Position numbers and translations under genes: made by a program. Below the pieces are notes generated by a model. That model was not told the DNA's origin. It did not search any database and saw nothing but the letters and a program-made list of their open reading frames with translations. Positions 4,854-30,153 of a stretch of DNA of 64,000 nucleotides are shown here, one piece after another. The DNA lies in the NCBI RefSeq assembly GCF_005795905.1, contig NZ_VAWE01000001.1, positions 744,001 to 808,000 on the forward strand, read 5' to 3'. How positions within the stretch are numbered: the stretch's first letter is position 1; the number at the start of each line of letters is the position of its first letter. The DNA is from Streptomyces marianii (GTDB taxonomy: Bacteria > Actinomycetota > Actinomycetes > Streptomycetales > Streptomycetaceae).

Positions 4854-5234
4854 ATGGTGACCAAGCAGTTCACGGGCTCGCCCGACGAAGCGGACCTCCG
4901 GCGCGCGGACTCCCTGGCACGGGAGATATTCGCGGACGTCGCCAACAAATGGGCTCTCCTGATCATCGAGGCTCTGGGTGAGCGCACTCTGCGCTTCAGC
5001 GAGCTGCTCGGCGAGGTGGAGGGCATCAGCCACAAGATGCTCACCCAGAACCTGCGCATGCTGGAGCGCAACGGTCTGGCCCACCGCAAGGTGCACCCCA
5101 CCGTGCCGCCGCGGGTCGAGTACAGCCTCACCGAGCCAGGGCTGGCCCTGCGGCGGACCGTTGACACGATGTGCGACTGGACCCACCGGTACCTCGGGCA
5201 CATCGAGGCCTCCCGCAGCCGTTTCGACGCCTGA
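4854..5234 (+). CDS. HxlR-family transcriptional regulator
   Basis: 126-residue winged-helix protein of the HxlR/MarR-like family. The hallmark block runs from about residue 27: VANKWALLIIEALGERTLRF, then a recognition region (EGISHKMLTQNLRMLERNGL) and the wing (HRKVHPTVPPRVEYSLTE). The LRFSELLGEVEGI segment is diagnostic. The gene is divergent from the ridA-like gene; the palindrome at 4783-4797 is its likely operator. Either ATG 4854 or the next GTG codon may be used; a GGGGAA precedes the ATG. Its likely inducer is a small reactive metabolite, by analogy with other HxlR proteins, but nothing in the sequence identifies it. Confidence 0.93.
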   Translation: MVTKQFTGSPDEADLRRADSLAREIFADVANKWALLIIEALGERTLRFSELLGEVEGISHKMLTQNLRMLERNGLAHRKVHPTVPPRVEYSLTEPGLALRRTVDTMCDWTHRYLGHIEASRSRFDA

Positions 5235-5264
5235 CGGTTCTGCCCGCCCCCACTCCTGCCGCCT

Positions 5265-5329
5265 GGTTCCGAACGCTCGGTTCCGAACGCTCGGTTCCGA
5301 AGTCTCGGTTCCCGGCTCGAACGGGAACC
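5265..5329. repeat. Three 14-bp tandem repeats followed by a hairpin
   Basis: Units at 5265-5278 and 5279-5292 are identical (GGTTCCGAACGCTC); 5293-5306 differs at two positions. Each holds a small dyad GTTC-N-GAAC. They run straight into an inverted repeat GGTTCCCG-N7-CGGGAACC (5307-5329). The array begins 30 bases after the HxlR stop, so it may work as a terminator or as a protein-binding array. Confidence 0.75.
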
Positions 5330-5543
5330 GCGCGAAGGGGGGTGATCGAGCGCCGCAGCGCGGACACGGATCGCCCCCGGCCCCTGACCGGTCCTTACGG
5401 CAATCGCCGCGGGCCAGGCGGCGTTCGGGCCGGGCCACCGGTGCCCCTGCCCCGAGCCCCGCGCCTCGGCGGCGTCGGGCCCCGGGGTGGGGCCCTCGCG
5501 GGCCACCCGGTCGGGGCTCCGCGCCGGTCCGGCGCGGCACCGG
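5330..5543. other. Intergenic stretch without supported gene
   Basis: Between the repeat array after the HxlR gene and the 168-bp inverted-repeat element. Open frames here are GC-driven, lack ribosome sites and resemble nothing I know. Confidence 0.5.
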
Positions 5544-5711
5544 CCAAGGGCTGTCCCGCGATCCCCGGCGGGCGCGCGACGACAGCCATGACGCCTCGCC
5601 GCGTTGTCGGATCATCCGAACACACCCGGTACGAGGACGGCTCTCCGCCTCCCGACGCACCGCGTCCGACGCCGCGCGCCGGTCCCTCAGGGACTGCGGG
5701 ACAGCCCTTAG
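5544..5711. mobile_element. MITE-like 168-bp element with terminal inverted repeats, copy 1
   Basis: The ends are imperfect inverted repeats of about 22 bp: the left end begins CCAAGGGCTGTCCCGC and the right end read backwards begins CTAAGGGCTGTCCCGC. The interior shares a long run of identity with a second copy at 28581-28747 (core CGCCTCGCCGCGTTGTCGG), about 80-85 percent overall by eye, in the same orientation. It has no coding capacity. Its right terminus contributes the TAA stop codon of the rmdA gene. It could be a non-autonomous transposable element or a repeated 3'-end (terminator-like) element. Confidence 0.75.
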
Positions 5712-7879
5712 ACCGCGTCCGCGAGCGACAGCGTGTGCAGACGGTCCGGCGGGCCCGGCCGGGCGTAGTACCAGCCCTGCGCCGTGTCACAGCCCAGCTC
5801 GCGCAGTTGCTCGGCCTGGACGCCCGTCTCCACGCCTTCCACCGTCACCGCCAGCTCCAGGCTGTGGGCCAGCGAGACGATGCCCTCGACGATCTTCCGG
5901 TCCACCGGATCCGCCGGGTGCTGCTGCATGCCCCGGGTGAAGGAGCGGTCCAGCTTCAGCACCCTCACCGGGAGCCGCCTCAGATTGGCCAGGTTCGAGT
6001 AGCCCGTGCCGAAGTCGTCGAGCGCGATGTCGACGCCCATCTCCGCGAGTTGCCGCAGCGGCTTGAGCAGGTCCTCGTCCGCTCCGATCAGAGCGGACTC
6101 GGTGACCTCCAGGCACAGCGCGCCGGGCGGCAGACCCGAGCGTTCCAGTACGTCCACGGTGTCTGCGACCAGCCCCGGGTGGTGCAGCTGGGTCGGGGAC
6201 AGATTGACGTTGATCCGCAACGGCGGTACCGAACAGCCCGGTTCGGCCTGCTCGTGCCAGAAGCGCGCCTGCCGCACGGCCTCCTGCAGGACCCACCGGC
6301 CGAGCGGCACGATCAGCCCGGTGTGCTCGGCGAGCGGGATGAAGTGGTCCGGCCCGAGGACCCCGTGTTGCGGGTGCAACCAGCGCACCAGCGCCTCCGC
6401 GCCGTGCACCCGGCCGTCGCCGAGGTGCACCAGCGGCTGGTACTCGATGAAGAACTCGCCCCGCTCCAGGGCCGCAGGGAGCGCCGTGGTGAGCCCGTGC
6501 CGGGTGATCGCGCGGGCGTCCGCCTCCGGGTCGGCGAGCTCGAAGCGGTTCCCACCCGCGGACTTGGCCCGGTACATGGTGATGTCCGCGCTGCGCAGCA
6601 CCTCCGCCGAGGTACGCTCCCCGGCCGGCCCCTCGACGATCCCGATGCTGCCCCGGACGCTGATCTCCCGGCCTTCGAGGGTGATGGGCGCGGCCAGTGC
6701 GGCGAGGATCCGGGCGGCGAGCTCGGTCACCTCGCACTGGGTCTCCCGGCCGGTCGTCAGCGCGACGAACTCGTCACCGCCGAGCCTTGCCACCATCTCC
6801 CCGGGGGCCGTGGCGCAGCTCTGCAGCCGGTCGGCGACCTCGACGAGCAGCCGGTCGCCGGCCGAGTGGCCGAGGCTGTCGTTGATCGCCTTGAAGCCGT
6901 CGAGGTCGAGGTAGCAGAGCCCGAAGCGGGCGCCGTCGCCGGCCGCCAGCGCCTTCTCCAGGCGCTCGAAGAACAGGGTCCGGTTGGGCAGCCCGGTGAG
7001 CGCGTCGTGCGTCGCCTCGTAGCGCAGCCGGAGGTTCAGCAGCCGCCGTTCGGTGGTGTCCTCCATCAGCGCCAGCTGGTACTGGGGCAGACCGTCGGCG
7101 TCCCGCAGCAGCGAGACGGTGAGGTTCGTCCAGAGCACCGTGCCGTCGTTGCGGTAGAAGGGCTTCTCGACGCGGTAGTGCTCGCGTTCGCCGCGCACCA
7201 GCTCTTCGTACATGTTCCAGGTCTGCGGGCGGTCCTCCGGGTGTGCCCATTCGTTGACCTTGCGTCCGCGGACATGGTGCTCCAGTCCGCCGAACATCCG
7301 GGTGAGCGTGTCGTTGACCTCCAGGACGTTGCCGTCCAGGTCGGCGATGCCGATGCCGATCGCCGCGTCCTCGAACACCGCGCGGAAGCGCGTCTCGGTG
7401 GCGTGCAGGGCCTCCATGGCCACGCTGCGGGCCGACAGCGCCGACCTGGCGATGGCCTCCTGCTCGCTGAGGGTGCGCTCCCGCAGCGCGAGGGCGTACC
7501 CGGCGGCGAGGGCGTGCTGCAGTCTGGCGCAGCGGGCCCGGCTGTCGTCGGCGGGCTCCTGGTCGTTCCCGCAGTACAGGACCAGGTAGGCGTCGACGAC
7601 GCCGAGCGTGCGGCTGAGGGCGTCCGGGTCCGTGCAGTGGACCTCGACGAGGGCGGCGCCGACCCGCTGGGCGGGGCCCGGGTCGAACGGGCGCGTGTGC
7701 AGTGCGTCACTCAACTGCCTCGCCAGCGGCAGCAGATGCCCCTCGAACTCGGGACGGGTCAGCGATGTGGCGGTGACCGGGAAGATCGCCCGGCTCCAGA
7801 TGGTCGCGAACCGTCTGAGCCTGTCCTCCAGGTCGTCCGGGCCCGCCGTCGAGCCCGCTGCCTGCGACGGCGTCATCAC
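5708..7879 (-). CDS. rmdA: PAS-GGDEF-EAL cyclic di-GMP protein, RmdA-like
   Basis: 723 residues, cytoplasmic. An N-terminal helical region of about 165 residues is followed by a PAS domain (FRAVFEDAAIGIGIADLDG to LALMEDTTERR), a GGDEF domain with intact RLGGDEFVAL, and an EAL domain with EALVRWLHP and DDFGTGYSNLANLRRLPV. Both catalytic signatures look intact, so synthesis and hydrolysis of c-di-GMP are both conceivable. From memory, S. coelicolor RmdA (SCO0928) has this layout, acts mainly as a phosphodiesterase and affects development, and lies near sdh genes as here. The start is GTG 7879, overlapping the methyltransferase stop as GTGA, or the next codon, ATG. The stop is TAA, unusual here, and is provided by the end of the inverted-repeat element. 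Confidence 0.9.
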   Translation of the reverse strand: MMTPSQAAGSTAGPDDLEDRLRRFATIWSRAIFPVTATSLTRPEFEGHLLPLARQLSDALHTRPFDPGPAQRVGAALVEVHCTDPDALSRTLGVVDAYLVLYCGNDQEPADDSRARCARLQHALAAGYALALRERTLSEQEAIARSALSARSVAMEALHATETRFRAVFEDAAIGIGIADLDGNVLEVNDTLTRMFGGLEHHVRGRKVNEWAHPEDRPQTWNMYEELVRGEREHYRVEKPFYRNDGTVLWTNLTVSLLRDADGLPQYQLALMEDTTERRLLNLRLRYEATHDALTGLPNRTLFFERLEKALAAGDGARFGLCYLDLDGFKAINDSLGHSAGDRLLVEVADRLQSCATAPGEMVARLGGDEFVALTTGRETQCEVTELAARILAALAAPITLEGREISVRGSIGIVEGPAGERTSAEVLRSADITMYRAKSAGGNRFELADPEADARAITRHGLTTALPAALERGEFFIEYQPLVHLGDGRVHGAEALVRWLHPQHGVLGPDHFIPLAEHTGLIVPLGRWVLQEAVRQARFWHEQAEPGCSVPPLRINVNLSPTQLHHPGLVADTVDVLERSGLPPGALCLEVTESALIGADEDLLKPLRQLAEMGVDIALDDFGTGYSNLANLRRLPVRVLKLDRSFTRGMQQHPADPVDRKIVEGIVSLAHSLELAVTVEGVETGVQAEQLRELGCDTAQGWYYARPGPPDRLHTLSLADAV

Positions 7880-28580: not shown

Positions 28581-28747
28581 CTGAGAGCTGTTCCGCAAAC
28601 CCCGGCGGGCGCGCGACGACGGCTACGGCGCCTCGCCGCGTTGTCGGATCATGCGAGTACACCCAGTGTGAGGACGACTCTCCGAGTTGCGATGCACCGC
28701 GTCCGACGCCGCGCGCCGGCCCCCGGGGACTGCGGGGCAGCCCTCAG
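28581..28747. mobile_element. MITE-like 167-bp element with terminal inverted repeats, copy 2
   Basis: The left end begins CTGAGAGCTGTTCCGC; the right end read backwards begins CTGAGGGCTGCCCCGC, giving about 23-bp imperfect inverted repeats with five mismatches. The interior matches copy 1 (5544-5711) over its full length and in the same orientation. As in copy 1, the right terminus overlaps the stop codon (here TGA) of the minus-strand gene to its right. No coding capacity; no clear target duplication. Confidence 0.75.
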
Positions 28748-30153
28748 CGGACCAGCTCCAGCAGCGCGGCCATCTCCTCCTCGATCGCGCGGGCCAGCCG
28801 GTCCACGTCGGGCAGGGCCTTCCCGTCGGCGACCAGGCCGAAGTACACCCGGCCGCCGTACGTGGACATCGCCACGGCGAGGGACTGGCCGCGGGCGAGC
28901 GGGGCCATCGGGTAGATCTCGCGCAGCGGGCAGCCGCCGAGCGACAGTGCGGAGCGGGGCAGCGGCACGCTGGTCGCGAGGAGGTCGAACAGCATCCGGG
29001 CGGCGTTGCCGGCGATCGGTGCCCCGAACCGGTGGGCGAGCGGCGGCAGTTGGTCGGCGAGCACGGCGACGGCTCCGGCCCCGCGCAGTGGCCCCGCCGC
29101 CTTGTTGCGGTCCATGCCGTCGCGGACCGCGTAGAGCCGGGCCCAGGGGTCGGGCTCGGTGACGGGGAGGTCGAGCAGGTACGCGGACAGCTTGTTGCCG
29201 GAGCCGGGCGGGCCGCCGGGACGGCGCCTGGACACCGGGACGAGGGCGCTGGGGTCGGTGGGCGGCAGGGCGTCACCCCGCTCGGTCATCCAGCGGCGCA
29301 GCGCCCCGGCGACAGCGGCGAGGAGCACGTCGTTCGCGGTGCCGCCGGCGACCCTGCGGACCTCGTGGACCTCGTCGAGGTCGAGTACGGAGGTGGCGAG
29401 CCTGCGAGTGCCACTGGAGCTGGCGCTGAGCGCCGCGGCGCCGCGGGGGTCGAGCCGGCCGGCCCGGGCGAGCGAGGCGCCCAGGAGGGAGGCGCCGACT
29501 CCGAAGGCCCGGCCCAGTTCCTCGATGCGGCCGCGGGCCATCCCGGCGACCTGCCAGGGACCGGGCAGCCAGGACCGGGGCGGTACGGCGGCCGGGCCCC
29601 GGCCGGACCTTCGGCCGTGCCTGCGGGCGCGCGCCGCGAGCGGCCCGGCGATCTCGTCGAAGATGCCCGCCCCGATGGCGACGGCCCGCATGCCGTCCGC
29701 GAGAGCGTGGTGCAGTTTGACCAGGACGGCGAACGGATCGCCCGGACCTCCGGTGAGCAGGTACATCTCCCAGGGCGGCAGCCCCCGTTCGAGCGGGCGC
29801 TCCATCAGCTCCGCGGCGAGCGTGGCCGCGGACGCCGCGAAGTCGCCCGCCGGCAGCCGGACCTGACGCAGATGCCGCCGTACGTCGAAGTCCTTGTCGG
29901 CCGTCCAGGCGGCGCCGCCCACGGGCAGCAGGACGTCGGTGACGCGCATGCGCAGGCGGGGGATCGCGGAGGCACGGGCGGCGAGCAGCGCGAGGATCTC
30001 CTCGCTGCCGGCCGCGGCCGTGCCGGCGTCCCCGGACGCGGGCGGGGTGAAGTGGGCGAGCGCGCCGAGGTGCATCGGGTGGTCGGCGGACTCAAGGTGC
30101 CAGAAGGCCAGATCCAGGGGTGCCAGCAGCTCGGTGCTCAAGGGTGTCCTCAT
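28744..30153 (-). CDS. WS/DGAT family wax ester synthase/diacylglycerol acyltransferase
   Basis: 469 residues, the usual length. The active-site HHxxxDG is intact (KLHHALADGM, His148-His149). The C-terminal part has GGTANDVLLAAVAGALRRWM, VPVSRR, and PLARGQSLAVAMSTYGGRVY. It joins fatty acyl-CoA to diacylglycerol (or fatty alcohol) to make triacylglycerol, a major Streptomyces storage lipid, working at the inner membrane face. The upstream region contains three in-phase GGTTAC motifs. The stop codon lies within the end of an inverted-repeat element, so the C-terminus may have been reset by insertion, though the length looks normal. Confidence 0.93.
   Translation of the reverse strand: MRTPLSTELLAPLDLAFWHLESADHPMHLGALAHFTPPASGDAGTAAAGSEEILALLAARASAIPRLRMRVTDVLLPVGGAAWTADKDFDVRRHLRQVRLPAGDFAASAATLAAELMERPLERGLPPWEMYLLTGGPGDPFAVLVKLHHALADGMRAVAIGAGIFDEIAGPLAARARRHGRRSGRGPAAVPPRSWLPGPWQVAGMARGRIEELGRAFGVGASLLGASLARAGRLDPRGAAALSASSSGTRRLATSVLDLDEVHEVRRVAGGTANDVLLAAVAGALRRWMTERGDALPPTDPSALVPVSRRRPGGPPGSGNKLSAYLLDLPVTEPDPWARLYAVRDGMDRNKAAGPLRGAGAVAVLADQLPPLAHRFGAPIAGNAARMLFDLLATSVPLPRSALSLGGCPLREIYPMAPLARGQSLAVAMSTYGGRVYFGLVADGKALPDVDRLARAIEEEMAALLELVR

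Follow-up and report, generated by a model that had tools for sequence, protein, structure and literature searches.

A family of MITE-like elements of Streptomyces targets CTAG and can rebuild TAG stop codons as TAA

A close described counterpart of the element reported here is TnRErm46, a resistance transposon of Rhodococcus equi that targets CTAG and whose flanking repeat can provide a TAG that serves some target genes as their stop codon (PMC6794481). CTAG direct repeats also flank an IS5-type element of Mycobacterium shottsii, and the same report quotes a two-ORF criterion for assignment to the IS427-like group (PMC9241763). Bacterial MITEs in general, for example those of Haloquadratum, are short, multi-copy and bounded by terminal repeats, and their target duplication is set by a transposase acting in trans; rebuilding of stop codons or a core with exchanged ends was not found in the accessible sections of that work (PMC3119063). 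The Streptomyces MITE studied here resembles TnRErm46 in its CTAG target and in the preservation of target gene function via the stop, but TnRErm46 is not a MITE: it encodes a transposase, is flanked by direct repeats of the form NCTAGN, differs in its inverted repeats, and the stop stays TAG. The principle of CTAG targeting with a preserved stop is thus not new. For the MITE family itself, the rebuilding to TAA, the evidence for selection and a common core with exchanged ends, no precedent was found in searches of the open literature, nor any paper on this family or on such a core in Streptomyces.

We analyzed a 64,000-nt stretch of the Streptomyces marianii genome (the window), which carries two copies of the element, both of subfamily A and in the same orientation. 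Copy 1 (162 bp, AGGGCTGTCCCG...CGGGACAGCCCT) lies at 5547–5708 and copy 2 (161 bp) at 28584–28744; they are ∼85% identical, with a mean column identity of 87% when the flanks are included, and both are bounded by terminal inverted repeats (CTNAGGGCTGTCCCG...CGGGACAGCCCTNAG), which comparison of copies puts at ∼20 bp. A previous sequence-only reading had recognized the pair, its common orientation and its inverted repeats; its location of the copies (5544–5711 and 28581–28747) was right, but the actual elements lie slightly inside these limits, as set by comparing copies and by the empty site in G254, the nearest relative found. The 9.0-Mb genome (7 contigs) harbors at least ∼40 copies in two subfamilies, a lower bound since 40 candidates per search were scored, and with ∼40 copies the repeat is not a product of chance. 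Three fragments of this genome (4795242, 4238056 and 1958394) were excluded from every count. The element is short, multi-copy and bounded by terminal inverted repeats, and compared with the empty G254 sites at two loci it is flanked by a 2-bp TA duplication, all of which characterize MITEs; at 162 bp it is too short for any transposase. Matches were present in 23 of the 61 genomes searched (our strain included), mostly of the same genus and some of them restricted to the core of the element, as well as in 47 of 72,556 plasmid records, all from Streptomyces.

Both window copies end within the stop codon of a gene on the minus strand, as the sequence-only reading had stated. At copy 1 this is a gene for a PAS-GGDEF-EAL protein of 723 aa (5708–7879, minus strand; the name rmdA comes from that reading only), whose TAA stop (5708–5710, TTA on the plus strand) consists of the target TA on the right of the element (5709–5710) and one A of the element. 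The left copy of the dinucleotide (5545–5546) now reads CA, and on the opposite side of the element a gene for an HxlR-type regulator (4854–5234, plus strand) is convergent with the GGDEF-EAL gene. At copy 2, the gene for a wax ester/triacylglycerol synthase (WS/DGAT) family O-acyltransferase of 469 aa (28744–30153, minus strand) ends with TGA (28744–28746, TCA on the plus strand), composed of the two bases of the right target dinucleotide (28745–28746, now CA, which is TG on the gene strand) and again an element A; the left dinucleotide (28582–28583) is now TG. The earlier proposal that the end of the element supplies the stop therefore holds insofar as the end is part of the stop, but just the last A comes from the element.

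Comparison of empty and filled sites identified CTAG, less often GTAG, as the target sequence, with duplication of TA. In G254, whose GGDEF-EAL gene matches ours at 97% identity in the 3′ part, the empty site reads GCG GTG TAG, and the filled site reads GCG GTC TAA|GGG; on the other flank the alignment resumes exactly 2 bp back relative to G254, corresponding to a duplicated TA. The position of the stop is unchanged: among 29 fetched relatives, this gene ends at the exact codon in 26 (10 TAG, 16 TGA) and one codon later in three, as counted by eye. Locus L028 shows the same 2-bp offset as copy 1, with GCG TAG in the empty G254 site and GCC TAA in the filled one, and here as well as at L036 all five relatives stop at the codon in question (four TAG and one TAA in each case). 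The site of the L030 copy carries TAG in G254 and G297 and TGA in G034. For the acyltransferase, Streptomyces sp. I6 (CGC TAG), S. wuyuanensis (CGC TGA) and our strain (CGC TGA) share the same stop position; as both target dinucleotides have changed here (now TG and CA) and S. wuyuanensis also has TGA, we infer the TA origin at this site. The earlier idea that the element brings the stop is not borne out by these comparisons: the first two stop bases belong to the target, and relatives without the element have a stop, mostly TAG, at the same codon, with unchanged C-termini. Empty sites with a stop at this place are one of the outcomes that the sequence-only reading had itself named as speaking against its proposal.

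In G383 (L248), a degenerate element-like sequence, TG|AGGTCCGTCCCG..., is located at the stop of the gene that carries the L030 copy. No element-like sequence was displayed at that stop in G254, G034 and G297, unlike in G383, where it could represent either an old shared insertion or a second insertion.

The base preceding TA at copy 1 (window position 5711) and at L028 is C in the filled sites and G in all five nearest relatives, so that the codon before the rebuilt stop is GTC or GTG at copy 1 and GCC or GCG at L028; at L036, this base is G in both states. The target at copy 1 and L028 was either a CTAG that had arisen by a silent change or a GTAG that was altered later. All six distinct G024 copies examined carry intact CTA|A and T|TAG on their two sides. 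A 3-bp TNA duplication was rejected, as the middle base is mostly R at left ends and Y at right ends and the empty sites give 2 bp.

We consider it very probable that the repeat is a non-autonomous MITE, presumably mobilized by an IS5-type transposase, which targets CTAG or GTAG, is flanked by a duplicated TA and rebuilds TAG to TAA. An IS5-type (IS427-like) transposase acting in trans would cut CTAG, less often GTAG, duplicate TA and thereby split a TAG stop after its TA. As A is the outermost base on each side of the element, TA plus this A would give TAA in either orientation and the protein would remain unchanged. A later A-to-G change could then convert TAA into TGA and be tolerated, and a T-to-C change would yield CAA and extend the protein. 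CAA was not seen at any end that meets a coding frame in that register. Elements with G as their first base follow the same rule, with TAG as the rebuilt stop. In this 71% G+C genome, where CTAG is depleted and rare in coding interiors, most of the surviving sites are intergenic and about one fifth coincide with C+TAG stop codons.

In 804 kb of this genome (the window plus 37 other stretches), CTAG is strongly depleted: base composition would predict 2090 sites and trinucleotide frequencies 410, and 120 are present. Gene ends at most copies were called by a codon-usage score, and in the same test 116 CTAG sites fell into 21 at a stop, 90 noncoding and 5 coding, compared to 892 coding positions among 1500 random ones, indicating that the target sequence steers insertions away from coding interiors. 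For our 40 own copies (at most 4 mismatches allowed in the 12 terminal bases, and stops accepted from offset −1 to −3), we scored 13 with a gene stop at an end, 20 noncoding, 1 coding and 6 one-ended without a stop; the copy at L030, where relatives have a stop, narrowly missed the score threshold. The overlap with stop codons noticed at two copies is systematic; 27 of the 40 copies were not scored at a stop. Relative to the CTAG sites, placement at stops is not significantly increased (13/40 versus 21/116, odds ratio 2.2, p = 0.075), and the choice of CTAG combined with selection suffices to account for it.

A true targeting of gene 3′ ends beyond CTAG, for example through transcription or a terminator hairpin, appears improbable to us. 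The odds ratio would agree with it, as would another MITE at the GGDEF-EAL stop codon of G297 and the share at stops among loci of relatives (19 of 37; 16 of 34 once three duplicates are set aside by eye), which were mostly high-scoring ones among well over 100 places listed, with the CTAG background computed for our own genome. However, 20 of our 40 own copies are noncoding with no stop at an end, the excess at stops does not reach significance, and the G024 copies L282 and L287 have both ends intact with no gene stop called.

This register was examined at 126 distinct ends (67 own and 59 from the relatives' loci; up to 3 mismatches, with 7 of 133 ends removed for having the same flank). At 28 of them a coding frame reaches the boundary, and 26 of these arrive in a stop-making frame, 25 of them in the −2 register, in which the target TA and the element A form a codon, and one (L020) shifted by one base. 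The other two (L037 and L273) arrive in another frame. The test did not require a stop to be present, and all 25 in-register ends are stops (14 TAA and 11 TGA). At the 101 other ends, which include the shifted stop-serving end of L020, the dinucleotide is TA in 41, TG in 11, CA in 27 and something else in 22 cases. TA or TG is therefore retained at 25/25 in-register ends compared to 52/101 elsewhere, where 49 have lost it (p = 1e-6, for ends that are not fully independent, since orthologous copies were removed only when their 40-bp flanks were identical). Among the changed forms, CA is absent from the 25 in-register ends, and the ratio of TG to CA is 11:0 there against 11:27 elsewhere (p = 2e-5). 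The simplest reading of this retention is that ends used as stops are under purifying selection; TAA would be the precursor of the TGA stops.

The sequence-only reading had put forward an ordinary MITE with chance placement as its alternative. It is right in that no sensing of gene ends is needed. Chance as the reason for the position at stops is hardly credible: the noncoding half of our own copies and a stop fraction not significantly above the CTAG background would fit it, but the nearly uniform arrival of coding frames in the stop-making register (26/28) is caused by the target sequence.

The orientation of the flanking genes brings in a further explanation. Flanks facing a gene's 3′ end are relatively more frequent at our own copies than at CTAG sites (31:29 versus 45:101, p = 0.007), and the gene-strand RNA of both window copies folds strongly (z near −6, computed for the gene strand only), as would be expected of a stop-and-terminate cassette, an element retained at 3′ ends for terminating transcripts with its long hairpin as well as completing the stop. 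We regard such a role as unlikely. The enrichment of 3′-facing flanks is equally expected if insertions upstream of genes, near promoters, are purged, and the empty site at L028 already has a palindrome just downstream of the stop, as read from its sequence. Moreover, a simple scan of positions 5200–5900, which covers U-tract terminators only, found no hairpin followed by a U-tract, so that copy 1 does not have the form of an intrinsic terminator of this type.

With regard to the transposase, the IS5-family elements of this genome (NF033580, PF13340; IS427-like under the two-ORF criterion) share the CTAG target and the TA duplication with the MITE, and their ends CTA|G...C|TAG rebuild TAG. One of them, 1.1 kb long with ends CTA|GGGCGTG, has rebuilt TAG stops at L045 and L082. 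In contrast to the MITE, these elements encode a transposase and carry the terminal repeats GGGCGTGTTCTG or GGACTTGTCC instead of AGGGCTGTCCCG, and the repeats of the MITE were not found at the IS5 loci examined. An autonomous element with AGGGCTGTCCCG ends was absent from 45 loci with IS5-type genes, comprising 30 PF13340 loci (among more than 150 matches listed), which were scanned for inverted repeats and matching ends, and 15 further own-genome stretches; altogether 19 stretches of our genome cover each distinct IS5 type listed. No parent transposon appeared in 16 stretches around lone ends from relatives and our own genome, and five lone-end stretches of G028 turned out to be ordinary copies cut by contig ends. 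A search of our genome with the exact-end pattern, inspected by eye and covering one-mismatch matches in part, gave no pairs of ends 0.7–3 kb apart. Duplication of TA is typical of the IS630/Tc1 superfamily, and a transposase of that type could in principle have moved the MITE; we find this doubtful, as IS5-type elements of the same genome use the same CTAG and duplicate TA as well.

The middle of the element is more widespread than its ends. Seven MITE families with different termini, including the one studied here, share a core of ∼100 bp, which in copy 1 extends approximately from 5576 to 5676. The others were found in Streptomyces (G016, G012, G018, G015/G004 and G297, the last with ends GGCCGTGTCTGAC) and in G044, which belongs to another family of the same order; matches in G016, G012, G044 and others cover just the middle of the query. 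These elements are 165–230 bp long and have CTAG-type ends as in our MITE, but their terminal repeats are unrelated and G follows CTA, so that the rebuilt stop would be TAG. Alignment to the G016 core gave scores of 35–80 for the other families and 48–72 for the tested members of the studied family, and at most 20 for shuffled sequences (200 shuffles, one locus). The occurrence of the same core under unrelated terminal repeats indicates that the core outlives its termini. Small GC-rich palindromes are nested in the core at L336, L339, L341 and L257 and lengthen these copies to ∼200–230 bp.

In G297, a different MITE with ends GGGGGTGTCCGGTGGG (L106) occupies the same TAG stop of the GGDEF-EAL orthologue and is an independent insertion at one stop codon. 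Four of nine examined loci of this G297 family are at a called stop, with TAG as the rebuilt form. The L106 element itself was not counted as core-sharing, as its score of 18 is within the range of the shuffles.

A conserved RNA was considered and set aside, as most changes on both sides of a pair fall into the exchanged termini and the core pairs are mostly invariant. The fold of the alignment pairs the whole element, and one core pair, columns 41–125, occurs as four pair types; given the weak covariation within the core, we claim no RNA. Rfam gave no match at E up to 1 for window positions 5000–6200. It is conceivable, if rather unlikely, that the ∼100-bp core is under selection in its own right as a functional hairpin and has repeatedly been re-framed with the termini of different IS5-type elements, which carried it into CTAG sites. 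If so, it would act as a modular cargo, able to spread at gene 3′ ends and leave the genes undamaged, with the first base of each terminal repeat seen here (A or G) rebuilding the stop.

More generally, a palindromic target containing TAG together with a terminal purine would make a mobile element harmless in a stop codon, a rule from which the places of surviving insertions in G+C-rich genomes can be predicted. Of the 1065 gene ends called here, 45 are TAA, and some of these rare stops may stem from the element. For genome annotation, it follows that a transposon may contain the last bases of a gene.

On annotated plasmids, a CDS ends on the junction at 2 of 15 places found with the element as query (L309 and L314; place H7, which has no annotation, is outside the 15) and at 1 of 5 places found with the end alone (L306). 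Most plasmid copies thus lie away from annotated stops, and the 2 of 15 is a smaller share than that of our genome, to be read with an incomplete gene table.

Elements also occur close to one another. At L010, the right end of an element copy has a further CTAG-type end (CTAGGGCGTGTTTCGAA) a few bases away, as if CTAG elements pile up. At L030, a second repeat family of ∼160 bp (L030:3226–3389) is located ∼60 bp beyond an element copy, and this family has many copies in relatives, especially in G403 and G254.
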